Assembly (NCBI GenBank): GCA_017469685.1
Contig: JAFUFW010000021.1
Location: forward strand, 1-64,000
Source: Bacteroidaceae bacterium
GTDB lineage: Bacteria; Bacteroidota; Bacteroidia; Bacteroidales; Bacteroidaceae
Length of the DNA stretch: 64,000 nucleotides
Direction of reading: 5' to 3'
Made by a program: the position numbers and the translations under genes. A model generated the notes under the pieces. That model searched no databases, was not told the origin of the DNA, and was given only the letters and a program-made list of their open reading frames with translations. Shown in pieces: positions 18,538 through 46,775 of the stretch (the stretch's first letter is position 1; each line of letters begins with the position of its first letter).

Positions 18538-18575
18538 GTACACTATGGCCATTGTTCGTACACAATGGCCATAGT
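18538..18575 (+). promoter_or_regulatory. Candidate HTCS operator upstream of CE12-GH115 gene
   Basis: A perfect 14-bp inverted repeat, ACTATGGCCATTGT (18542-18555) and its complement (18562-18575), separated by six bases. The same bases also form a direct repeat: GTACAC.ATGGCCAT starts at 18538 and 18558, a 20-bp period. A -7-like box (GAACTTTG, 18594-18601) lies downstream with no -33 element, placing the repeats at roughly -32 to -69, where an AraC-type activator would bind. The five T after the repeat also allow a terminator reading for the HTCS transcript. Confidence 0.6.
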
Positions 18576-18653
18576 ATTTTTACGCATACACGCGAACTTT
18601 GTGCCCGAGAAATAGCAACTAACTACATTCAGTCTTCAAAACTACTAACTCAC

Positions 18654-21600
18654 ATGAAACGAATCAAACAAATCCTCATTGTCCTTGCTGCACTCGCAGG
18701 CACAGCAGGCGCATGGGCTGCCGTCACACAGTTTGGCGGCACCGAGACAAAAGAGTGGACGGCGACGTCGGCTGATGGCTGCAACAGCGGAACCACCATC
18801 ACCCTCGACGGTGCCGTCGTGACCCTCGGCTCGGCCGACAACAGTTCAGTTACATGGGACTGGAACGCTAAGAACGGCGGACTCCTACCCAGCCAGATGC
18901 CCACCACAGACGGAACCACGGGAACCCTCATCACATCCTTCTCGGCAACGTCACCCTTCGGCACGCTGCCCACAAAGGGATGCTTCCTGCAGATTCAGCC
19001 AACCAAGAAAGGCACCATCACTATCAAGGGCAAGCCGTCGGCCAATGCCGCTCAGAAGCTTGTCTTTGTGACTCTCGACAAAAGTAACCCGTCCACCATC
19101 CTTGCCGCACAGATTACCGATTACAATGCTGCTACAACAGAGTGGAGCTATGCGGTCGATGCCGACCATCTCTATTACTTCTTCCAGATGGCCTACCCGA
19201 ACCAGCTTACAGGCTATCGTTTCACCCTGCGTGGCCTCGCTTTCGATGACAATGTGACGGAGACCGAGACCACCACCGTCTGGACCATCGGCGACAGCAC
19301 CATGGCCAACAAGACCAGTGCCACCGAGCGCGGTTGGGGTATGCTCTTCCCGACCTTCGTGGATGCTACCCAAGTCACCGTCAGCAACCATGCCACCGAC
19401 GGCCGCAGCACTAAGAGCTTCATCGATGAAGGGCGCTGGGAGACCGTTCGCAGCCAGCTGGCTGAAGGCGACTACGTGCTGATGGAGTTCGGCCACAACG
19501 ATGAGAAGACCACGTCTTCGCTGCACACCGACCCGCAGACAACCTACAAGGAGAACCTCACCAAGTTCATCAACGAAACACGCGCCGCTGGTGCCACACC
19601 CGTGCTGCTCACGCCCATCGTGCGCCGCATCTTCGGTCCGGACGGCAACATCTACGACGAGCACGGAGAGTATTGCACAGCTGTGCGCGAGCTGGCAGCC
19701 GCCCTCAACGTGCCTCTCATCGACATGAACATCCTCAGCGGCTATTACGAGAACGTTGCCGGCATCGTGGGCTCACGCGACATTCACGAGTACTTCCCCG
19801 GTAAGGAGATCGACAACACGCACATGTGCCAGCTTGGTGCCTACATCACTGCCCGTTGTGTGGCCGAGCAGATTGCGCTCAACGATGACATTGACATCCC
19901 CCTGAATGCCAACCCCGCAGCCCAGAACGGTGCCTATAGCTCCACGCTGGCCTTCGCCCAGCACTACTATCAGACCGCCTACCCCGGCCGTGCAGTGCCC
20001 ACCACGCTTGCCGCCCTCGACGCCAGCGTCCGTGCCCTGCGCCGCGAGGCTCGTCAGGCTCTTGTCACCGCCGACAAGCCCGCCGACGCCACCTTCGCTC
20101 TCGTCAACCCCGACTTCGTGGAGGGTACTTGCTGGTACAACGGCCCACAGGCCTCCTACCCCATGGGCTGGAATCTCAGCAAGAGCACCAGTGGCACCGA
20201 GAATATCCAGGTGAAGACCGACGAAACCGATGGCTTCAACTACTTCATCGTCTGGGCTCCCACGATGAACTATATCGACATGAGCCAGACGGTAGCCGAC
20301 CTGCCTGACGGCACTTATCAGGTGACAGCACAGGTCAACGCCAGTGCAGGCGCCGAAGGCAGCACGACCTACCTCTACGCCACCTCTGGCGATGCCACTC
20401 AGAAGACAACCGTCACGGCCTTAGACGCCTGGACGCCCGTCAGCGTGCAGTGCGAAGTCACCGACGGCGAGCTTCGTCTGGGGCTACGCTCCGAGGGTGG
20501 TGCCTACCACCGCATTGCCGACGTACACCTGACGCTCGTGAGCGTTCCCGAAGGCTCCGGCACAGAAGCCCTTGAAGTCTCTGCCGAGGCAACGGAAGGT
20601 GCCTTCGTCATTGCCAACACCACAGGTGTTACACCTATTATATATAATGAGGGCGATCACAGCGTAGTAGGCGTAGCCGCCAACGCCATCGCCTCCGACA
20701 TCAAGGCCATCACCGGCCAAGAGCCCACTGTGCTCAGCGGTTTACCCGCTGAGGTTCCCTCTTCTGCTATCATCCTCGGCACCATCGGCCAGAGCGGCCT
20801 CATTGACCAACTTGTCACGGACGAAAAGATTGACGTTTCCGCTATCAATGGCAAGTGGGAAGCCTATACCCTTCAAGTGGTTTCCAACCCCATGTCGGGC
20901 GTCAGCCAGGCACTCGTTATCGCGGGCAGCACGCCGCGCGGCACGGCCTATGGTGCATTCGAGCTTTCCCGTCTGATGGGCGTATCGCCATGGATTTGGT
21001 GGGCCGACGTGCCCCCCGAGCCTCGCACAGCCCTCTATGCCACTGCCGGCAGCCTCACAGTCGATGAACCCTCGGTGAAGTTCCGCGGCATTTTCATCAA
21101 CGATGAGGACTGGGGCCTGCAGCCCTGGGCTGCCAAGAAGATGGACACCGACATCAAGAACATCGGTCCCCGCACCTACGAGCGCGTCATGGAACTGCTG
21201 CTGCGTCTGCGTGCCAACATCCTCTGGCCCGCCATGCACAAGTGCTCCACCGCATTCTGGAACATCGCCGAGAACCCGCAGCTGGCAGCTAAGTATGACA
21301 TCGTGCTTGGCAGCAGCCACTGCGAACCCATGCTGCGCAACAACGTCGGCGAATGGACCGGCGGCGACAGCAACTACAACTATGCCACCAACGCCAGTGG
21401 CGTGCAGGCCTACTGGCGCCAGCGCGTGGAGGAGTCCAAGGATATGGACGTCATGTACACTCTCGGTATGCGCGGCGTGCACGACGGCAGCATCCAGGGC
21501 TACAGCGGCGCAGCCAATATCGCCGCAGGCCTCAAGGACATCATTGCCTTCCAGCGCGGCCTCATCGAGGAAATCGTGAACCCCGACGTGACGCAGGTGC

Positions 21601-24131
21601 CGCAGACCTTCATCCCCTACAAGGAGGTGCTCGATGCCTACAACGCCGGTCTGCAAGTGCCCGACGACGTCACCCTCACATGGGTCGATGACAACCACGG
21701 CTACATCCGCCAGATGCCTACCGAGTCCGAGCAGGCACGCTCCGGCAGCAACGGCATCTACTACAACCTCTCCTACTACGGCTCGCCGCAGGACTACCTA
21801 TGGCTCTCCACCATCGGTCCATCGCAGATCAGCTACGAGCTCACCCGCGGCTACCAGCAGGGCATCCAGCGCCTGTGGATCATCAACGTGGGCGACATCA
21901 AGCCCGCCGAGGCCGAACTGGAATTCTGCATGGACCTCGCCTGGGACGTCAACGCTTGGGGACCCACCAAGGCTGCTAAGTGGAGCCGCACCTGGGCTGC
22001 CCGCACCTTTGGCGAGGACGTGGCCGACGAGCTCGGTGCCATCAAGCAGGAGTACTACCGCTTAGCTGCCGGCGGCAAGCCCGAGCACGTGGCTTTCGTC
22101 GACTACAGCACCGAGGAGATGAACCAGCGCATTGCTGACTACGAGGCACTGGCCGCACGCGTCGATGCCGTGAAGGGCAGCATCCGCAGCGAGTTGCAGG
22201 ACGCTTTCTTCGAGCTCATCGAATATCCCGTGCGAGGAGCATACCTGATGAACGTCAAGCATCTGCGCGCCACACAGAGCTTCACCGAGGCCAACGCCGG
22301 TCGAGGCACGACGGCCTTGCAATATGCCAGCGCTGCCACAGCCGCCTACGACGAGATACAGACCCTCACAACGAAATACAACAAGCAGATTGCCGGTGGC
22401 AAGTGGGATGGCATCATGAGCGCCGCACCGCGTTCGCAGGCAGCCTTCAACAAGCCCAGCGTGGCCACCGAGGCCGACGTTGTCCCCGTGGAGAGCAACT
22501 TCTCTGAGGGCACGCACCTCACTGTCGCTGCTGCCGACTACACATCTGCCAGCTCTTCTGTCAAGAAGCTCGACGGTCTCGGAATGCAGGAGCAAGCCGT
22601 ATGCGTGTGGCCCATGGATCTCACCAGCTACAGCCAGGCTACCGATGCGCCCTATGTGGACTACAGCCTGCCCGTCAAGGCCGGCACGAATATCATCACC
22701 CTGCGCTTCCTGCCCACCTTCCCGCTGCACGCCGGAGGCACCCTGCGCTATGGCATCCAGTTCTTGACCGCAGGCGGCAAGGCTACGACCTTCAGCATCG
22801 CCACCACCGCAACCTCCAGCACCTGGAACCAGAACGTCCTGCGCGGATGGTCCACCGGCAAGAGCCATGAGTACGAGGCCGACGAGGACGGCACACTCGC
22901 CATCCGCGTCTATCTGATGGATCCGGGCATCGCACTCAGCGAGATTACTATCGACCAAGAGGCTGAGAACGAGTCTCTGACAGACTCCTATATCGTCAAC
23001 CCCGACTTCGAGCTCTCGGCCGAAGGTGTCACCAACTCTGGCGGTGCCACAGTGCGCGGCGTGCCTTACGGATGGAGTACCAACATAGAGTTTACGGGTA
23101 ACTCCAAGGGCATCAATGGCACCGGCACGAACATGCATGGGGCCAACAGCTGCTGGTTCTGGAATAAGCCTATGCCCGCAGACTTCGAGTTCTATCAGAC
23201 CATCAAGGATCTGGAGCCCGGCCGCTACCGCATCTCCTGCCGCTTAGGCGCACGCTCCGGCTACATGGGCACCATGCGCCTCTTCGCAGGGGCCGATGTG
23301 CAGTACTTCGGCAAGGAGAGCGACTACAATAGCAGTATCTTCGTCAAGGGTGAGCGCAACACTTTCGCCGGTCACTCGGGGACGTCGGACTACAACACGC
23401 TGCAGAGTATGTTCGTCGATTTCCAGATCACAGAGAAGCGTGACATCAACGTCGGCATCCGCACCAGCAACGTCAAGGCCGACGGCACCACCGACACTTC
23501 GGGCGAGACAGGCACCTTCCGCGTCGATTACTTCCAGCTCTTCCGCCTTGGCGACGCAGTGCCCACCTACACCGTCACTTTCCGCCTCGGAACGGACGAG
23601 GAGAGCTATGCCGGCTTCGTGCCCCTCTTCAATGCCGACTTCGCCGCCACCGAAGGTGTGACAGCCTACGTGGCTACGGCTGAGCACGACGGCGTTGTCA
23701 CCCTCTGCGAGGTCAGCGCCGTGCCAGCAGGTACGCCTGTCATTCTGAAAGGCACGAAGGGGCAGACCGTCACCATCGCTGAGGCAACCTCCGCACCTGC
23801 TGCTGTAGAGACGAACCTCCTACGTGCCGCCCACGACACCGAGATCGCTGCTACCGACCCGCGCTATGTCCTCACCTATCAGACCGAGCAGTGGCTCTTC
23901 GCCCACTACGCCGGCATCCTGCCTGAGGGTAAGGTCTATCTCGAGCTGCCTACAGGCGAGGTCAAGAGCCAGCTCCATTTCGTCTTCGACAAGGAAACTG
24001 GAATCAGCCGTCCCGCCACCGACTCATCCAAGTCAACAACCATCTACAACCTTGGCGGCACACAGCTTAGCTCACCACAGGGCAGTGGTGTCTACGTGGT
24101 GAACGGTAAGAAAGTGGCAATTAAACAATAG
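18654..24131 (+). CDS. Secreted CE12 acetylesterase - GH115 alpha-glucuronidase fusion
   Basis: 1825-aa multidomain enzyme. The start is ATG at 18654, giving the signal peptide MKRIKQILIVLAALAGTAG; the open frame extends further upstream through the operator. Order: N-terminal beta domain (about 23-200), SGNH esterase of the CE12 rhamnogalacturonan acetylesterase type (GDSTM with Ser215, GHND block, Asp387 and His390 in DNTHM), a CBM-like domain (about 480-635), GH115 alpha-glucuronidase (about 640-1430; RGIFINDEDWGLQPWA, LWPAMHKCSTAFWN), a second CBM-like domain, and a tail GSGVYVVNGKKVAIKQ of the kind seen on exported Prevotella proteins. It would remove acetyl groups and terminal glucuronic acid from the same glycan. 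First gene of the locus after the HTCS. Confidence 0.9.
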   Translation: MKRIKQILIVLAALAGTAGAWAAVTQFGGTETKEWTATSADGCNSGTTITLDGAVVTLGSADNSSVTWDWNAKNGGLLPSQMPTTDGTTGTLITSFSATSPFGTLPTKGCFLQIQPTKKGTITIKGKPSANAAQKLVFVTLDKSNPSTILAAQITDYNAATTEWSYAVDADHLYYFFQMAYPNQLTGYRFTLRGLAFDDNVTETETTTVWTIGDSTMANKTSATERGWGMLFPTFVDATQVTVSNHATDGRSTKSFIDEGRWETVRSQLAEGDYVLMEFGHNDEKTTSSLHTDPQTTYKENLTKFINETRAAGATPVLLTPIVRRIFGPDGNIYDEHGEYCTAVRELAAALNVPLIDMNILSGYYENVAGIVGSRDIHEYFPGKEIDNTHMCQLGAYITARCVAEQIALNDDIDIPLNANPAAQNGAYSSTLAFAQHYYQTAYPGRAVPTTLAALDASVRALRREARQALVTADKPADATFALVNPDFVEGTCWYNGPQASYPMGWNLSKSTSGTENIQVKTDETDGFNYFIVWAPTMNYIDMSQTVADLPDGTYQVTAQVNASAGAEGSTTYLYATSGDATQKTTVTALDAWTPVSVQCEVTDGELRLGLRSEGGAYHRIADVHLTLVSVPEGSGTEALEVSAEATEGAFVIANTTGVTPIIYNEGDHSVVGVAANAIASDIKAITGQEPTVLSGLPAEVPSSAIILGTIGQSGLIDQLVTDEKIDVSAINGKWEAYTLQVVSNPMSGVSQALVIAGSTPRGTAYGAFELSRLMGVSPWIWWADVPPEPRTALYATAGSLTVDEPSVKFRGIFINDEDWGLQPWAAKKMDTDIKNIGPRTYERVMELLLRLRANILWPAMHKCSTAFWNIAENPQLAAKYDIVLGSSHCEPMLRNNVGEWTGGDSNYNYATNASGVQAYWRQRVEESKDMDVMYTLGMRGVHDGSIQGYSGAANIAAGLKDIIAFQRGLIEEIVNPDVTQVPQTFIPYKEVLDAYNAGLQVPDDVTLTWVDDNHGYIRQMPTESEQARSGSNGIYYNLSYYGSPQDYLWLSTIGPSQISYELTRGYQQGIQRLWIINVGDIKPAEAELEFCMDLAWDVNAWGPTKAAKWSRTWAARTFGEDVADELGAIKQEYYRLAAGGKPEHVAFVDYSTEEMNQRIADYEALAARVDAVKGSIRSELQDAFFELIEYPVRGAYLMNVKHLRATQSFTEANAGRGTTALQYASAATAAYDEIQTLTTKYNKQIAGGKWDGIMSAAPRSQAAFNKPSVATEADVVPVESNFSEGTHLTVAAADYTSASSSVKKLDGLGMQEQAVCVWPMDLTSYSQATDAPYVDYSLPVKAGTNIITLRFLPTFPLHAGGTLRYGIQFLTAGGKATTFSIATTATSSTWNQNVLRGWSTGKSHEYEADEDGTLAIRVYLMDPGIALSEITIDQEAENESLTDSYIVNPDFELSAEGVTNSGGATVRGVPYGWSTNIEFTGNSKGINGTGTNMHGANSCWFWNKPMPADFEFYQTIKDLEPGRYRISCRLGARSGYMGTMRLFAGADVQYFGKESDYNSSIFVKGERNTFAGHSGTSDYNTLQSMFVDFQITEKRDINVGIRTSNVKADGTTDTSGETGTFRVDYFQLFRLGDAVPTYTVTFRLGTDEESYAGFVPLFNADFAATEGVTAYVATAEHDGVVTLCEVSAVPAGTPVILKGTKGQTVTIAEATSAPAAVETNLLRAAHDTEIAATDPRYVLTYQTEQWLFAHYAGILPEGKVYLELPTGEVKSQLHFVFDKETGISRPATDSSKSTTIYNLGGTQLSSPQGSGVYVVNGKKVAIKQ

Positions 24132-24155: not shown

Positions 24156-24314
24156 ATGAAAAAGATATATGTCCGGCCAGACATGCGCACCTGTCGCATC
24201 ACTCCTGCCACCATCATCGCCACTTCAATCAATATCTCTAACGATATCGTCATCACCGACCCCGACGATGTGGCCGTCAAAGGCGACGGCGACTGGGGAG
24301 ACATCTGGGATTAA
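24156..24314 (+). CDS. Small protein, MKKIY family, copy 1
   Basis: 52-aa gene, 24 bp after the CE12-GH115 stop, starting MKKIYVRPDMRTCRITPATI and ending with an acidic, Trp-containing region VAVKGDGDWGDIWD. No signal peptide, no membrane segment. It resembles the 60-aa product at 26069 in its start (M[KR]KIY..P), hydrophobic I/V positions, central Ile-Asn, and the VKG...W..D ending. Each copy follows a large secreted protein with the same tail. The frame ends with TAA 47 bp before the next signal-peptide gene. Function unknown; similar short proteins are common in Bacteroidales and usually left unannotated. Confidence 0.7.
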   Translation: MKKIYVRPDMRTCRITPATIIATSINISNDIVITDPDDVAVKGDGDWGDIWD

Positions 24315-24361
24315 GAGGCAATGAAAGACTTAAGCTAATCAAGAATCAACAAATAGACATA

Positions 24362-26050
24362 ATGAGACATACAATAATCAAAACACTCCTGCTTGGGCTG
24401 ATGCTCGCAGGAGGAGCAAGTTCTGTCTGGGCTGAAAACACCGTTCAAGAGTTTGGCCGTGAGTCAGCCACCAACTGGACCACCTCTTCATCTACCACAA
24501 ACATCAAGTTTGGCAGCACGGTCACGTTGAATGGTCTTGTCATGACCTTTGGTGGCAGTACATACGCGACGCCGCAGAGCACCAATGGTAGTACCTTCAG
24601 CGAAGACTTCTGGACATGGAATAGCAATAATGGCGGTGTGGTTCCTGGCTTTATGCCAAACAATGGCAGTACAAGCAGTGGCGTCATTTCTATAGCTGTA
24701 GGTGATGCACTTCCCACCAATGGTGCTGTCTATAAGTTTGAACTATCCAAGTCTGGCACGCTTACCATCAACGGCAAGGGTGGCACGACAAAAGGAAAAA
24801 TTGTGTTGCTGCAGGCCGACAATGATAACAAGGTGACTGCTGTCCTCAGACAAGATGCAGCTACCAATACGGCGGTTACAACCACCTATTCCCTTGAGGC
24901 GGGTACTTACTATTTCTTCCAGTTGTGTGAAGGAGCCGGTAATGTCAACGGCTATCGCTATACGCTGAAGAGCATCCAGTTTGAGACCCTTGAACCTGTT
25001 GAGGGCCTGAAGGTATGGAACTTCGAGGAAAGCGGATGGAAAAGTGTTTCCACGACCTCTCCGCTGGGTGTTATACAAGATCAGCTCTGGCTGAGCGGAT
25101 CTATTACTTATGATGCCGCTCAGACACGCTACAACATAGCTGCTGGAAAGAGTAATCAGATTCGATTCAAGGTGAAAAAGGGCCAGAAGGGTTATGTGGT
25201 CATCGTGGCTAAAGGAACAAACAGTAGCACAGGTATACAATATGGTTTGGGCAGCAAGGCCAGCGTAGACAACACCAGCAAGGTCTGCGTAGGCACCATC
25301 TACAAAGTATATACCTCTACGTTTGTCACCTGCGATGCAGACAAAGATGTGCTGATCCATACCGACGGCAACATGGGATATATCAAGAAGATTGCATGGG
25401 TACCCAACGCTAATTCCGCCACAGCCTTGGCTTCTGTCACCATGGGCACAGCAGGTTTCTCCACGTTCTGCCCCACGGCTACGGTCAACATCCCTACTGG
25501 CGTAAAGGCATACATCCTGAATTCATGCAGTGGCACGACCGCCACCTGGAATGAAATCACAGGCAAGATACCCGCATTTACTGGTGTACTCCTGGTCGGT
25601 GAGGGCGGCACACAGTATGACTTCTATTGCCCATCATCCAGCAGTTCTGCCATTGACGGTATTGTCGCCACAGGGCCTACTCCAGCTTGGTATAACACAG
25701 CTTCTACCCAGCAGAATATCCTCGTCGGCACCTACAAGACGACTTCTATCCCCGCCTCCGACGCTACGACCTCTTACTATGGACTCAAGAAGAACACCAA
25801 TACGTTCGGTCTGGTGAGCGCTAATGTGGATATGCCCGCAGGCATGGCCTATTTCTCTGTAGCAACTGCTGAAGTGAAGGAACTGCACGAGTTCATATTT
25901 GGCTTAAGCGGCGCAACAGCCATCCATACGACCGAACAGGCAATGCCCCAGGGTAAGCAACCATTCTACACCCTCAGCGGTATGCTCGTCAGTGGCAATC
26001 CCGCACCTGGCATCTATGTCAAAGGGGGCAAAAAGGTCATCATCAAATAA
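24362..26050 (+). CDS. Secreted non-catalytic protein sharing domains with the CE12-GH115 protein
   Basis: 562-aa protein with signal peptide (IIKTLLLGLMLAGGASSVWA). Its N-terminal domain (about 27-205) is clearly related to that of the preceding enzyme: compare WTWNSNNGGVVPGFMP here with WDWNAKNGGLLPSQMP there, and SGTLTINGK with KGTITIKGK. A later module (TAGFSTFCPTATVNIPTGVK, then GVLLVGEGG) matches the enzyme's C-terminal module, and it ends in APGIYVKGGKKVIIK, the same class of tail. No glycosidase, lyase or esterase motif is seen, so glycan binding at the cell surface is the likeliest role. That is inference. Confidence 0.75.
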   Translation: MRHTIIKTLLLGLMLAGGASSVWAENTVQEFGRESATNWTTSSSTTNIKFGSTVTLNGLVMTFGGSTYATPQSTNGSTFSEDFWTWNSNNGGVVPGFMPNNGSTSSGVISIAVGDALPTNGAVYKFELSKSGTLTINGKGGTTKGKIVLLQADNDNKVTAVLRQDAATNTAVTTTYSLEAGTYYFFQLCEGAGNVNGYRYTLKSIQFETLEPVEGLKVWNFEESGWKSVSTTSPLGVIQDQLWLSGSITYDAAQTRYNIAAGKSNQIRFKVKKGQKGYVVIVAKGTNSSTGIQYGLGSKASVDNTSKVCVGTIYKVYTSTFVTCDADKDVLIHTDGNMGYIKKIAWVPNANSATALASVTMGTAGFSTFCPTATVNIPTGVKAYILNSCSGTTATWNEITGKIPAFTGVLLVGEGGTQYDFYCPSSSSSAIDGIVATGPTPAWYNTASTQQNILVGTYKTTSIPASDATTSYYGLKKNTNTFGLVSANVDMPAGMAYFSVATAEVKELHEFIFGLSGATAIHTTEQAMPQGKQPFYTLSGMLVSGNPAPGIYVKGGKKVIIK

Positions 26051-26068
26051 CCTCAAAACGCAATAAAC

Positions 26069-26251
26069 ATGAGAAAGATATATCAAGTTCCTGTCGTAAA
26101 GGCTCTCGTTATCGCTCCCGAGTCCATTTGCGTTGGTTCGGGCACTCAGGGCGACATTAACAACCTCGGCATCTCCAACGACGAGAGTTCCACCATCTCT
26201 TCTGGCTCCGACTTCGGAGTCAAGGGCAACAATGTCCAATGGGAAGATTAG
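26069..26251 (+). CDS. Small protein, MKKIY family, copy 2
   Basis: 60-aa product, 18 bp downstream of the secreted protein gene, starting MRKIYQVPVVKALVIAPESI and ending SDFGVKGNNVQWED. It is homologous to the 52-aa product at 24156 by its start motif, the Ile-Asn core and the VKG(D/N)...W.D ending; the middle is Ser/Asp-rich. No export signal. A strong terminator follows 60 bp later, so this gene closes the transcript that begins with CE12-GH115. Confidence 0.75.
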   Translation: MRKIYQVPVVKALVIAPESICVGSGTQGDINNLGISNDESSTISSGSDFGVKGNNVQWED

Positions 26252-41954: not shown

Positions 41955-44900
41955 TTAACGGACCTTGCTCACTGCAACTTTCTTCTTGTTGCGGATGTAG
42001 ATTCCGTTTTGCGTGCGGTTGACCTTACGGCCTGAGAGGTCATAGACAGCTCCTGCATTGGCCTTGTCGGAGGCTATGCCATTTATGGCGTCGGGGCCGC
42101 CCTGGATGGTGAGCTTGCCTGCTACGTAGGTGAACTCGTAGTTGTCGGCCTCGCAGCCAGAGACACGGATTTCGTAGACACCAGCATAGCTTTCTGGCGT
42201 AGCATCGCACTCGAATATGGGCTCATGCTTGAGCACATCGTCGATCTTCTCGCGGTTGCGAAGGGAAGAGTACTTGGCCTCAAAGACAGGATTCTCCTCG
42301 CCATATTCGCGTGTGTAGGAGAGTGCCGTCACGGTTACAGGTGCGCGCTCTACGGTGAGAGTGCCTTCGACGTATTGTACGCCAAGGCTTACGATGGAGC
42401 CCGCTGCCACTTGAATGGGATAGTCGCCCACAGGCGATGTCAGTTCGGCATCGCAGGTCAGGACGGGGTCGCCGGTTACGGGAGCGCCGGTGACGGCGTA
42501 GGTGAAGGTTCCGTTGGCACGGCCATACTGGCGCGATGAGGGCTGAGCCGTCACAGTGGGCACGCCAGTGTACTCTTCAACGTCGAACTTACCCCAGAAC
42601 TCGTCTGCCTTGTAGGCGTCGACCAATGCTGCGGGCACGAAGATTGTCTTTGCAGTGTTGTTGATGCCAGAGGCGTTGCCGTCGACGATAGATGAGGGAT
42701 TGAGGATGGCAATGTACTTAAGCTTGGAGGTGGTGGCAAATGCGTTCTCGCCGATGGTACGAACGTTTGCAGGGATGATGATAGCCTGCATGGCAGTGTT
42801 GCTGCGGAAAGCCTCGGCAGGAATCTCGGTGATAGAGGTGAAGTACTGTAAGTCTTCGAGCGTCTTGATAGCTGAAGCACCCTTGAACACTGTCGAAAGG
42901 TCGGTGACAGATGCCAGCTCCTCAGCGCTCAGCTCATCATCGTCGTTAAGATCCCAGCGGTTGAGCGCGAGGGACTTTGCCTTTGCATCGATGAACGGAA
43001 CGAAGTGGAGCTTCGTGCGGACAGATGCTATGGCATCCTGAATCTGGGCTTCTGAAGCCTCGAAGTTGTCATAGACGGCTTGCTCTGCTGCCACGTCTAT
43101 ATCCTGAGCCTTGGCTTGCTGGATCAACTGCTTGAGATCCTCTGTCAGATTGAAGAACTCGCGGTTAGCCTCTACTTCGTCAATGCTGATGAATCCCCAC
43201 TGAGTAGCCTCGGGAGCCTCCTCGTTGCGGGCGATGTCCCAGTAGAGGCCGTAGGTGCTTGTGGTGAAATCTGTAGCATGTTTGATGTCGGTGCCGAGGT
43301 ATTCACCCTCGACGTAAGTGCTCAAGGTTGAAGGCACCTGCAAGGTGTAGATATGCTCGCCCACCTCTTCGATGCTCCAATAGGCGGTCTTGTCGGTAAG
43401 CCTATCTGAAGGACCGTCGACGAAGCAGGCCTTGGTGCCTGAGCCCACCTTAGAGTCAGTAGAGGTGCGGAAGAGCAGTTTGTTGCCAGTGAGGTTCTCC
43501 GCTTCCATGTAGTAGGTGTTGGATGTGCTTGCGCCTACGTGCTTGAAATGATAGATAAGACCTTCGTTTGATACTACTGCCTGAGTGCCATAGGCCTCAC
43601 CCTTATTGATGTAGGCGCGCATGCCAAGGTTGAAGACGTAGTATGACTTGTTGACCTCGAACTCTGCGAAGTCCGGCCATCGCATAGCGCGCATCTCACG
43701 AATCTCGCCGAACTCCTTCCACACGTCTGCCTGGGCGTAAAGATCCTTGCTGCCGTAGGGAACGTAGAGCACAGCACTGCTGACGGGAACGTTCTTGAAA
43801 ACGTTCTGGCCAAGTGAGATGAGGGCCGGATCAGCTACGGATACTCGAACTTCTTTGAGCTTGGCACAGCCGTAGAAGGCATTGTCGCCGATCTCCTTGA
43901 GCTTCAGCGGCAACTCAATGCTCTCGAGCTTGCTGCAACCACGGAAGGCATTGTAGTAAATACCAGTGAGGTTCTCGGGGAGAACCACCTTCTCCAACTT
44001 GGTGCAATTCAGGAATTCATTGCCGGCAAGGTACTGCAATTTGGCGAAATACTTCAGGTCAGAGGCATCAACAATAGCGGTGTTGGCTGTGAAGATGCCC
44101 TCGAGAGTGCCTAAGGTGGCTGCTTCAGTGTAGCTTATCTCTCCGTCGCTGTCGCCGTCGATAGAGTTCACGCAGACGTTGCGGAAGGCTTTGTCGACGA
44201 AGTTGATGAGGTCGAGCTTCTTGCGCAGGCGGCCGCTGGCCTGTTCTATGAGTTCATCGGAGCTTTCGAGGTCGGCATAGACGGCTTCCTCGTTGGTGCA
44301 GTCGAGTTTCTTCTTCTTGGCTACATTGAGGAGGTTCTCAAGCTGTTTGGCTTTCTGATAGGTGGCAAGCTTGTCGGCATCGTAGGGCGTGAACATCCAA
44401 TGGCAGTTGCTCTTGTAGTCGGCATAGCTGATGTCGCTGTAGATGCCATAGGTCGGAACGAAGGCATTGCTGGCATGTGACGGCTGCACTCCGAGATATT
44501 CTCCTTCGACATAACCAGTGACGTCCGATGGAATCTGCAACGTGTAGGTGTTATCAGTGCCCTCAACGAGCTTTATCTCCCAGTATGCGGTCTTGTCGGT
44601 GACGACTGATGTCTGGCCGTCGACGAAGCAAGCCTTAATGCCGCGCCCGACCTTCGTGTCGGTGGACGAACGGAAGAGGATGTGCTTGTCGTTGCCTGTA
44701 TCATTGGAATAGAGATAGTAGACGCCCTCTGGCATTGAGGCTGAGTGGCGGAGCTGAAAGCGCATAGGCTCGTCCGTGTCATCCACTATAGCCTGAGTGT
44801 TCCAAGCCTCGCCGCGAGTCAGGTAACGGCCAGTACCCACATTATATAAATAAAGGTTGGTGTTCGTCGTAATGCCAATGTAGTCGCCTCCGCTCAAGAT

Positions 44901-46775
44901 GCGCTGGCGATAGTTGGAACCGAAGTCGCGCCACTGAGGAGTATTGGCGAAATACTCTTGCGTGCCTTGCAGCGAATTGAGTGTGGCGTTAGAGAGGTCG
45001 ATGCCATCCCACACATCTTCGCCAAGGGTTATTTGCTCGGGATTGATGCTGTTGACGGTGAACGATTTCAGCTTCGTGCAGTTGGCAAAGGCGCGGTTGC
45101 CAATGCTCTTAATACCGAGAGGCAGGGTTACGGCATTAATTGTGGCACAGCCCTCGAACGTGCCAGCCTCGATGGCTGTGAGGTTGGCTGGCAAGGTTAC
45201 ATTGGGTAGAACGCGGCAGCCATTGAAAGCACCCTCGCCTATCTCGGTGATGTCGTCGCGCAGGTTTATCTCCTTGAGTGTGCGGCATCCTTCGAAGGCG
45301 CGTGCGCCTATCCTCTTGACGCTTTTCGGAAGTTTGATAGTCGTCAGACGTGAGCAACCGCTGAAGGCTTCGTCTGGGATCTCGGTGAGACCTGTGAAAT
45401 TGTATAGCTCGGTAAACTCGGTGAAGGATTTACCCTTGAATGTGTCGCCAAGGTCGGTTACCTCGGCAGCTTCGCCGTAGGTGAGCTTGCCATCGCCATC
45501 CTTGTCGAAGGCTGCAATAATCAGCCGCTTGAGAGTGGCGTTGGCAATGGGCAGGGAGCGAGTCTCGAAGTTGATAGGCTCGACACCTATCACACACTCG
45601 CGCGACTGGCTGTAGCCACCGTCGGAACCGCCGATGCCCTGAGAGCCTGGGTGAAGGCTGGAGAGGAGGTAGTAGCCGTCGGACGAGCCGCCCCAACCCC
45701 AGTTGATATGGTAGCAGAGGTTACCATCGTAGCCGTCGCAGACAAAAGCGTGGCCGCCACTGCCGTTGGCGCCCGAGAGGTACACGGGACGGGCATTGGC
45801 CACTTCGTTGTAGATCATGGCATCCCACTGCTCTTCAGTCATGCCGTTGAATGAACTATATTTGACCGATTCGCCGAAGCCGAAGTAGTTTCTGAAGGCA
45901 TCGTCAACAGCGCTTGAGTAAGCGCCTGAAGAGGAATTGGAGTAGTCCATCTGGACAGAAGCACCGCAATACAGCATCAGGTCGGCAACAGCCTTGCGCT
46001 GTTTAGCTGTTGAGGAACTGCTGTAAGTGTCGGTCATATTGTCCCAGTCGATGGGAGAGTTGTTAGGTACGGCCGGCACCTGCAGCTTTTGTCCGTTGTA
46101 ATCCTTGCGGCCTTGGAAGGCGGGAATCTCTGCCTGCGTCTCGGTGACCATCTTCGCGCGGTGGTAATATAGTATCTGTGCCATGGCTGTTGCCACGCAT
46201 CCGGTGACGGAACGACCGAGGGTGAAGTACATCGGGCATGACTCGTTGTAAGGGCTGCCTTGGTTCCATTTGGATGTGCAGAGCTGTTCAACGGGGTCAT
46301 GCTTTGGGATGTTTGCCTTGCGTATAGGAGCTCCCGAGCGCCGGATGGCGTCGAGTTCATCCTCGTAGCTTTCGAGCCAGAACTTCATATTCTCTGGCAG
46401 TTGGGTGTAGTCGAAGTGTCCTTGGTTAGTATAGCCAAGAACGGGGAACGTCTGGTCGTCGCCGGAGACGATGACGAAGCCTTCCTCCTGACCACGGTCG
46501 AAAACGTAGTAGAGGTCGAGAGCGTCAGTTTTGAGACCTCGAATCTGGCGTACATGGCGACGCGGCGACAGACGGAAGTCGGATTCTACGGCTTTAAGCT
46601 GGCGGCTGCCCTTTCGCGTTGAAAGGAATTCGGCAGCGCGCTGGCGAGCTTGGTCCTGGGTGATGGGCTCGGCATTTGCGCCCGTCGAAGAGAGGAGCAT
46701 CAAAGCTGTTGACGCCAGAGCTAATGCGGTGTGGCGTGTGAGGCTGGTTAGCCTGAAGAAGTTAGTTGGTTTCAT
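41955..46775 (-). CDS. Giant C10 family cysteine peptidase with EF-hand loops, BspA-type LRRs and MBG domains
   Basis: 1606-aa secreted protein. Signal peptide (ALASTALMLLSSTGANA), propeptide (about 37-150), then a streptopain-like peptidase with Cys193 (VTGCVATAMAQ), His342 (GGHAFVCDGYDG) and INWGWGG. There follow three EF-hand-like loops (DKDGDGKLTYGE near 424, DGDSDGEISYTE near 870, DLNDDDELSAEE near 1273), each leading into BspA-type leucine-rich repeats (RIGARAFEGCRTLKEINL). Two copies of a ricin-like domain (YLYNVGTGRYL; YVFNLGMRAYI) mark a tandem duplication of about 400 residues. Two MBG domains and a GIYIRNKKKVAVSKVR tail end it. Likely a surface protease and adhesin. It follows the nucleoside kinase gene by 42 bp. 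Confidence 0.9.
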   Translation of the reverse strand: MKPTNFFRLTSLTRHTALALASTALMLLSSTGANAEPITQDQARQRAAEFLSTRKGSRQLKAVESDFRLSPRRHVRQIRGLKTDALDLYYVFDRGQEEGFVIVSGDDQTFPVLGYTNQGHFDYTQLPENMKFWLESYEDELDAIRRSGAPIRKANIPKHDPVEQLCTSKWNQGSPYNESCPMYFTLGRSVTGCVATAMAQILYYHRAKMVTETQAEIPAFQGRKDYNGQKLQVPAVPNNSPIDWDNMTDTYSSSSTAKQRKAVADLMLYCGASVQMDYSNSSSGAYSSAVDDAFRNYFGFGESVKYSSFNGMTEEQWDAMIYNEVANARPVYLSGANGSGGHAFVCDGYDGNLCYHINWGWGGSSDGYYLLSSLHPGSQGIGGSDGGYSQSRECVIGVEPINFETRSLPIANATLKRLIIAAFDKDGDGKLTYGEAAEVTDLGDTFKGKSFTEFTELYNFTGLTEIPDEAFSGCSRLTTIKLPKSVKRIGARAFEGCRTLKEINLRDDITEIGEGAFNGCRVLPNVTLPANLTAIEAGTFEGCATINAVTLPLGIKSIGNRAFANCTKLKSFTVNSINPEQITLGEDVWDGIDLSNATLNSLQGTQEYFANTPQWRDFGSNYRQRILSGGDYIGITTNTNLYLYNVGTGRYLTRGEAWNTQAIVDDTDEPMRFQLRHSASMPEGVYYLYSNDTGNDKHILFRSSTDTKVGRGIKACFVDGQTSVVTDKTAYWEIKLVEGTDNTYTLQIPSDVTGYVEGEYLGVQPSHASNAFVPTYGIYSDISYADYKSNCHWMFTPYDADKLATYQKAKQLENLLNVAKKKKLDCTNEEAVYADLESSDELIEQASGRLRKKLDLINFVDKAFRNVCVNSIDGDSDGEISYTEAATLGTLEGIFTANTAIVDASDLKYFAKLQYLAGNEFLNCTKLEKVVLPENLTGIYYNAFRGCSKLESIELPLKLKEIGDNAFYGCAKLKEVRVSVADPALISLGQNVFKNVPVSSAVLYVPYGSKDLYAQADVWKEFGEIREMRAMRWPDFAEFEVNKSYYVFNLGMRAYINKGEAYGTQAVVSNEGLIYHFKHVGASTSNTYYMEAENLTGNKLLFRTSTDSKVGSGTKACFVDGPSDRLTDKTAYWSIEEVGEHIYTLQVPSTLSTYVEGEYLGTDIKHATDFTTSTYGLYWDIARNEEAPEATQWGFISIDEVEANREFFNLTEDLKQLIQQAKAQDIDVAAEQAVYDNFEASEAQIQDAIASVRTKLHFVPFIDAKAKSLALNRWDLNDDDELSAEELASVTDLSTVFKGASAIKTLEDLQYFTSITEIPAEAFRSNTAMQAIIIPANVRTIGENAFATTSKLKYIAILNPSSIVDGNASGINNTAKTIFVPAALVDAYKADEFWGKFDVEEYTGVPTVTAQPSSRQYGRANGTFTYAVTGAPVTGDPVLTCDAELTSPVGDYPIQVAAGSIVSLGVQYVEGTLTVERAPVTVTALSYTREYGEENPVFEAKYSSLRNREKIDDVLKHEPIFECDATPESYAGVYEIRVSGCEADNYEFTYVAGKLTIQGGPDAINGIASDKANAGAVYDLSGRKVNRTQNGIYIRNKKKVAVSKVR

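Follow-up and report, generated by a model that had tools for sequence, protein, structure and literature searches.

Putative LPP-like peptide precursors encoded directly behind genes for T9SS surface proteins in the Bacteroidaceae

Small genes of one family stand directly behind genes for secreted proteins with a T9SS tail in the Bacteroidaceae, and we consider it probable (roughly 70%) that they encode LPP-like RiPP precursors whose enzymes are encoded elsewhere, each precursor belonging with a single pre-CTD-bearing T9SS surface protein, and the peptide acting with or on this cargo. In the proposed model, the dispersed precursors would be matured in trans by an RRE, a kinase and a peptidase encoded elsewhere in the genome, each would be encoded together with one pre-CTD surface protein, and the mature peptide would most likely act with or on its paired protein at the cell surface; the model thus supposes co-expression, binding, phosphorylation, cleavage, export and cargo interaction. 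What the sequences themselves establish is the family, its linkage, co-inheritance and selection at the protein level, the conserved geometry of the leader, and the presence and order of the three enzyme genes. It is based on a window of 64,000 nucleotides from a Bacteroidaceae bacterium (GCA_017469685.1, contig JAFUFW010000021.1, positions 1 to 64,000, forward strand), on the remainder of this source genome and on related genomes. The features of the window are as follows.

18654..24131, plus strand: T9SS cargo 1, composed of a GDSL esterase, GH115, a pre-CTD domain and a short CTD (start set at the ATG before the signal-like stretch; the longer frame is 18552-24131)
23586..23999, plus strand: pre-CTD domain of cargo 1 (E 8.1e-23; 81.8 bits with the profile from other genomes)
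24000..24128, plus strand: short T9SS CTD of cargo 1, IYNLGG..GSGVYVVNGKKVAIKQ (tail profile E 2.0e-17, this tail being one of the 26 sequences in the profile)
24156..24314, plus strand: small protein 1, putative RiPP precursor, 52 aa, with conserved Y5, P8 and S24 (profile E 1.3e-22, itself in the profile)
24156..24227, plus strand: putative leader of small protein 1, through the conserved Ser24 (Tyr+19)
24362..26050, plus strand: T9SS cargo 2, 562 aa, with an N-terminal domain common with cargo 1, a pre-CTD domain and a short CTD
25421..25912, plus strand: pre-CTD domain of cargo 2 (E 1.7e-30 with a 50-row profile that includes it; 75.3 bits with a profile made without cargo 2)
25913..26047, plus strand: short T9SS CTD of cargo 2, FYTLSG..APGIYVKGGKKVIIK (tail profile E 1.1e-15, the profile having been trained on this tail as well)
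26069..26251, plus strand: small protein 2, same family as small protein 1, 60 aa (profile E 2.1e-18, itself in the profile)
26069..26140, plus strand: putative leader of small protein 2, through Ser24 (from the family alignment and the Ser position count)
41955..46775, minus strand: contrast gene with a CTD (tail E 1.4e-11), no pre-CTD domain (-1.5 bits) and no small partner

An earlier note on this DNA had pointed to two small frames behind two related secreted proteins, and this description holds: the frames of 52 and 60 aa exist, they start 24 bp (first) and 18 bp (second) past the stop codons of the tailed genes, and the two secreted proteins have an N-terminal domain in common (66 of 208 residues identical, E 2e-20). 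The pattern M[KR]K.Y..P, with I, M, T, K or N as fourth residue, matches twice in the window and not once in 100 shuffles; in the source genome it matches nine times, compared with one match for the reversed pattern, and two of the nine are probably one gene split over the ends of contigs C52 and C92, leaving eight genes. A profile search brought the family to 11 members in the source genome, all of them (11/11) on the same strand as, and directly 3' of, a tailed gene or a tail remnant, so that the pairing is real and extends well past the two pairs seen in the window. For the split gene the linkage rests on the C52 piece, the C92 copy having just 96 bp of upstream DNA, and for the copy at C61:2556 the nearest tail is a 30-aa remnant, with an intact tailed gene 432 bp off. 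This T9SS tail remnant (G000:C61:2742-2795, locus L014, minus strand) lies directly before the small gene, which seems to have outlived its cargo gene. Several contigs, namely C52, C92, C6 and several loci elsewhere, end at a cargo 3' end plus small gene, where near-identical repeats are possible.

The same arrangement recurs in other genomes. The first profile found 29 loci there (L029-L057); the linkage is present in each of the 26 that extend far enough upstream, the other three having 34-61 bp of upstream DNA. Sixty further loci from six other genomes, which represent most, not all, of the matches listed for those genomes, contain 61 small frames, and 58 of the 60 with at least 200 bp of upstream DNA follow a tailed gene; the 61st frame, with 3 bp upstream, was left out, two of the 58 linkages (L124 and the first copy in L107) were recognised only by reading frames, and one locus is common to both sets (L032 = L103). 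Where the gap was measured in these six genomes (56 cases), it runs from -4 to 230 bp and is at most 130 bp in 52. The two exceptions are L129, where the secreted protein is shortened and ends in GKKYIK, and L162, which holds an orphan small gene.

The small proteins have no convincing counterpart among named families. Neither of the two window proteins has a convincing Pfam or NCBIfam family, 39 members compared with NCBIfam gave no match, small protein 2 has one weak PHROGs match of unknown function (E 0.013), and no relative was found among solved structures. RebB of Pfam was rejected as the family, because it matches one of the 39 members only, at a chance-level E of 0.008. Among the matches listed, at least 66 of 151 genomes of the bacterial family match the small family with profile A1, compared with 2 of 295 other genomes of the phylum with profile A2 (few of these 295 come from the same bacterial family), and of these two matches the one in G372 appears to be an unrelated 152-aa protein; on these counts the family is not common across Bacteroidota. 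The small genes are maintained as proteins: over 37 non-independent pairs the pooled dN/dS comes to about 0.26 in the leader and about 0.22 in the remainder (the second value is rough, with synonymous differences near saturation), so the genes stay under purifying selection after copying.

What marks the partnered genes is a domain of about 200 residues in front of the tail, here called the pre-CTD domain. In the source genome, 10 of the 11 tailed genes with this domain carry a small gene, compared with none of the 61 without it (p 2e-11; Fisher tests in this work ignore kinship, and the training sequences of profiles A3, A5 and 'pre' came from partnered genes). These genes derive from 85 matches to the tail profile at E up to 1, of which the analysis took the 76 at E no higher than 0.0053; these yielded 72 tailed frames, one match (C6:8-49) being without a locus and three fragments under 100 aa being skipped. 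C61:3138 was counted as unpartnered, a tail remnant standing between this gene and the small gene, and the pre-CTD threshold was set at 40 bits, with three unpartnered genes scoring 14-34 bits. The small protein can thus be rejected as a partner of the CTD as such, because the 61 tail-like genes without a pre-CTD domain have no small gene. The proposal in the earlier note of a dedicated partner of a secreted class survives in its linkage, which is strong, and needs amending in its definition of the class, which is marked by the pre-CTD domain and not by the GKKV tail.

A pre-CTD profile made from partnered cargos of other genomes recovers all 10 intact partnered cargos of the source genome at 54-156 bits, and in other genomes the domain is present in 55 of 55 partnered cargos tested, 51 of which trained the profile. 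In the other direction the tie is less strict: forty hand-chosen places with a pre-CTD domain and no partner in the first search divide into 18 with a divergent partner (weakest accepted score 7.3 bits) and 22 with none, two of the latter showing no tail end. Twelve genomes without a small match to the first profile were also searched for the domain: seven have no match, G004, G085 and G122 have 1-8 mostly weak matches each, and in G012 and G020 divergent partners are present. A comparison with solved structures gave no relative of the domain, and no Pfam family is common to 52 cargos.

The partnered proteins are cargo of the T9SS, as their tails show CTD motifs B, D and E, even though neither tail of the window matches a Pfam or NCBIfam model at E 1. 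They resemble the short-CTD cargo of Prevotella intermedia as described in the available portion of PMC11969387, with motifs B (Y.L.GRR), D (GxY/GxN) and E (basic GKK) and a TGI-like cleavage region, and differ from it in that the subset studied here adds the pre-CTD domain and a downstream small gene; the words 'downstream', 'operon' and 'small protein' are absent from the main text of that paper, as far as the available portion goes. The source genome encodes a SprA/Sov translocon (G000:C61:48682-56376, 2640 bits), and SprA is found in 63 of the 66 genomes with a listed small-family match, compared with 54 of the 85 without one (Fisher p 1e-6, kinship ignored). The three small-family genomes without SprA are G008, G047 and G131, the last two with one weak small match each. 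G008, which is given as 100% complete, has 14 small-profile matches among the matches listed and no SprA match at E 1e-10. The cargo domains are diverse and include BNR/sialidase-type repeats, NAGLU, GH95, leucine-rich repeats, endonuclease I and lectins, and because of this diversity a general role of the small protein as an inhibitor of the neighbouring enzyme was ruled out. Cargo 1 (18654-24131) fuses a GDSL-type esterase to GH115, and its surroundings look carbohydrate-degrading by eye; no relative of cargo 2 was confirmed in the genome contigs.

The N-terminus of the small proteins is what suggests their nature. An alignment of 39 members (11 from the source genome and 28 from other genomes) has three invariant columns only, Y5, P8 and S24. 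Among 117 unique small proteins, 116 have YxxP within the first 14 residues, and of these 100 have Ser at Tyr+19 and 85 have Ala at Tyr+17, counts that come from sequences found by profiles that themselves include the YxxP and Ser positions. An ordinary Sec signal peptide was rejected, the sequences, read by eye, having no continuous hydrophobic run at the N-terminus. A comparable leader is found in the linear polyphosphorylated peptides (LPPs), RiPPs described from Bacillota in 2026 (PMC13381572, to the extent that this source was available, also for the following). LPP precursors have a conserved N-terminus with the leader motif YxxPxVLxHQxIxFETxxS, in which the phospho-acceptor Ser is at Tyr+18, and a variable C-terminus. 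YxxP is the motif bound by the discrete RREs of lasso peptides and LPPs; in LPP synthesis the RRE protein LppB binds it, the HprK-like kinase LppK phosphorylates Ser, the third core residue, and the leader is removed by the signal-peptidase-like LppS. The roles of LPPs are given there as unknown, and the discussion states that they are restricted to Bacillota.

By analogy with that paper, Ser24 of the small proteins would be phosphorylated and the leader cleaved. The small family resembles LPPs (PMC13381572, available portion) in having short precursors with a YxxP leader, a conserved N-terminus, a variable C-terminus and a Ser 18-19 residues past Tyr, and in the presence of a discrete RRE, an HprK-like kinase and an archaeal-type signal-peptidase-like protease, which are encoded together and, here, in trans. 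It differs from LPPs in its leader, which lacks HQ, FET and the Ser at +18 and has the Ser at Tyr+19, with (I/L)A-x-S replacing FET-x-x-S; in its gene arrangement, the precursor genes being dispersed (11 found in the source genome), located outside the enzyme cluster and following a T9SS cargo gene or what remains of one; and in its host, which belongs to Bacteroidota and not to Bacillota. Because the leader consensus and the clustering of the precursor fail, we do not file the small family as LPP. Of the roles offered in the earlier note, 'leader-type peptide' fits best in view of the YxxP, the Ser at a fixed distance and the RRE/kinase/signal-peptidase-like operon in trans. Nothing found favours a chaperone or a sorting factor, and such a role is not needed as an explanation.

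The candidate enzymes lie together at one locus of the source genome.

C72:45576-47501, source genome: HprK-related kinase, signal-peptidase-like protein and PqqD RRE in a row, no precursor adjoining

The RRE scores 52 bits, the HprK-related protein matches TIGR04352 (E 2.3e-5) and TIGR04249 (E 1.7e-5), and the signal-peptidase-like protein matches TIGR02228 (E 4.6e-4). Against named families the kinases and peptidases score weakly (E 3e-3 to 2e-7, below the curated cut-off in every case), so these two names draw on motifs and gene order as well. The 15 aligned HprK-related kinases share invariant Walker A residues, and Ser66, His104 and Asp120 are invariant in 14 aligned peptidases. A PqqD-type RRE is present in 64 of the 66 genomes with a listed small-family match; as a discriminating marker it was discarded, because 11 of 12 genomes without the small family also carry one. 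The HprK-like kinase is found in 63 of these 66 genomes, compared with 60 of the 85 without the family (p 5e-5, kinship ignored), and in 60 of the 63 small-family genomes having both, the RRE follows the kinase downstream on the same strand at a distance of 496-989 bp. The signal-peptidase-like gene was read directly in 10 loci (L242-L250 and L261, from G012 and nine small-family genomes), and in all of them it stands between the two. Beside the enzymes in these 10 loci no YxxP small gene of the family was seen, three of the loci (L248, L250, L261) being cut by contig ends, and at the source-genome locus no nucleotidyltransferase or NTP transferase and no exporter, MsbA-like or other, was seen beside them; NTP_transf_5 is present elsewhere in the source genome (G000:C31:14082). 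Neither RRE nor kinase was found in G059 (94% complete) and G123 (86% complete), in which the small family is present, and G038, with a single weak small match, lacks the kinase. Directly before the kinase in L242 (5044-5580), and at the same place in L243, L244 and L246, is a gene for a protein of about 146-178 aa with a signal-like start, which has no Pfam family (L242) and may belong to the operon. In L242, L246 and L247 the RRE operon lies in a housekeeping neighbourhood near a gene that we take to be that of the primary sigma factor, rpoD.

A parallel arrangement occurs outside the T9SS setting. In G152, which belongs to another family of the class, the four profile matches are all YxxP small genes, as is the further gene L257, and each lies 12-32 bp before a lipoprotein-like gene (by eye); in G006 (L252) a YxxP small gene lies 28 bp before such a gene. 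Compared with Pfam, five of these lipoprotein-like neighbours gave one Mfa-like fimbrillin, one Fib_succ_major match below the cut-off and three without a match. The L257 pair adjoins an RRE and a nucleotidyltransferase, the L252 pair is near an RRE, a nucleotidyltransferase (PF14907), a kinase and a Wzc-like gene, and L256 (6358-13982; G152, Bacteroidota) contains a full LPP-type set of SpI, RRE, nucleotidyltransferase, ABC transporter and HprK-like kinase, with a Wzc-like gene close by. In the G152 and G006 loci, YxxP small genes and surface proteins thus occur together with enzymes of the LPP type, an association that the T9SS setting does not provide on its own.

Three other explanations have to be weighed. 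The main rival for the cargo link, which is compatible with the small genes encoding RiPP precursors, is that the pre-CTD domain, the CTD and the small gene are copied together from gene to gene as a 3' cassette, with a peptide whose function (a signal or an antimicrobial, for example) is unrelated to the cargo; we regard this as a tentative though live possibility. It would account for the diversity of the N-terminal and catalytic domains of the cargos, and the distances between small-protein cores and between pre-CTD domains correlate within three genomes as joint copying expects (G144, 20 pairs, r 0.51, permutation p 0.0005; G133, 10 pairs, r 0.60, p 0.001; G106, 10 pairs, r 0.54, p 0.01), as do core and CTD distances in two of the three (G144 r 0.50, G106 r 0.52; no correlation in G133, r 0.11). 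The core/pre-CTD correlation agrees equally with joint copying and with co-evolution, however, and the purifying selection on copied small genes speaks against simple hitch-hiking; the pairing of YxxP small genes with lipoprotein-like surface proteins in a different lineage likewise hints at a link beyond copying. The core/pre-CTD correlation would also fit an unmodified cytoplasmic partner, a chaperone or secretion-holding factor bound to the pre-CTD domain before Sec export. So would the one-to-one match of small genes to cargo genes, in which the two often overlap or almost touch (gaps as low as -4), and the strict tie to the pre-CTD domain in the source genome. We consider such a partner unlikely, as the strongest constraint falls on YxxP and one Ser, whereas the C-terminal half varies in length and sequence, and as 22 of the 40 inspected pre-CTD places (two of the 22 without a tail end) do without a small partner.

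A lasso peptide, or another YxxP-dependent RiPP that is not an LPP-like linear phosphopeptide, appears very unlikely. YxxP is also a lasso leader motif and the RRE matches the lasso PqqD model weakly (E 3.9e-4, below the cut-off); paeninodin-like lasso peptides in particular, in the available portion of PMC13381572, combine an RRE that goes with a [Y/W]xxP leader with an HprK-like kinase, as here. Against this, in each of the 10 loci read the RRE operon includes genes for a kinase-like and a signal-peptidase-like protein, and neither a macrolactam (lasso) cyclase nor a B2 protease was recognised by eye among its neighbours. The reading of the small proteins as LPP-like precursors, each encoded with one pre-CTD surface protein, is the one that we prefer.

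No earlier report of a pairing between genes for small peptide precursors and surface proteins was found in the open-access full-text literature, and in a study of RiPP mining in Bacteroidales (PMC10352776, available portion) YxxP and T9SS are absent. More speculatively, and with the odds rather against it, there may be a class of T9SS surface proteins each with its own phosphopeptide, the pre-CTD domain serving as dock, the small gene supplying the ligand and one RRE-kinase-peptidase set of the core genome serving them all. If true, RiPPs would here be dedicated co-factors of cell-surface proteins and not free natural products, and the arrangement of a YxxP peptide before a lipoprotein-like surface protein beside LPP-type enzymes would hold more widely in Bacteroidota. 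The family described here is a probable LPP-like precursor family in Bacteroidota, present in many copies per genome and with its genes linked one by one to those of secreted surface proteins; this linkage offers a concrete hypothesis for what LPP-like peptides do, and a class of uncharacterised small proteins gains a probable partner and a gene context.
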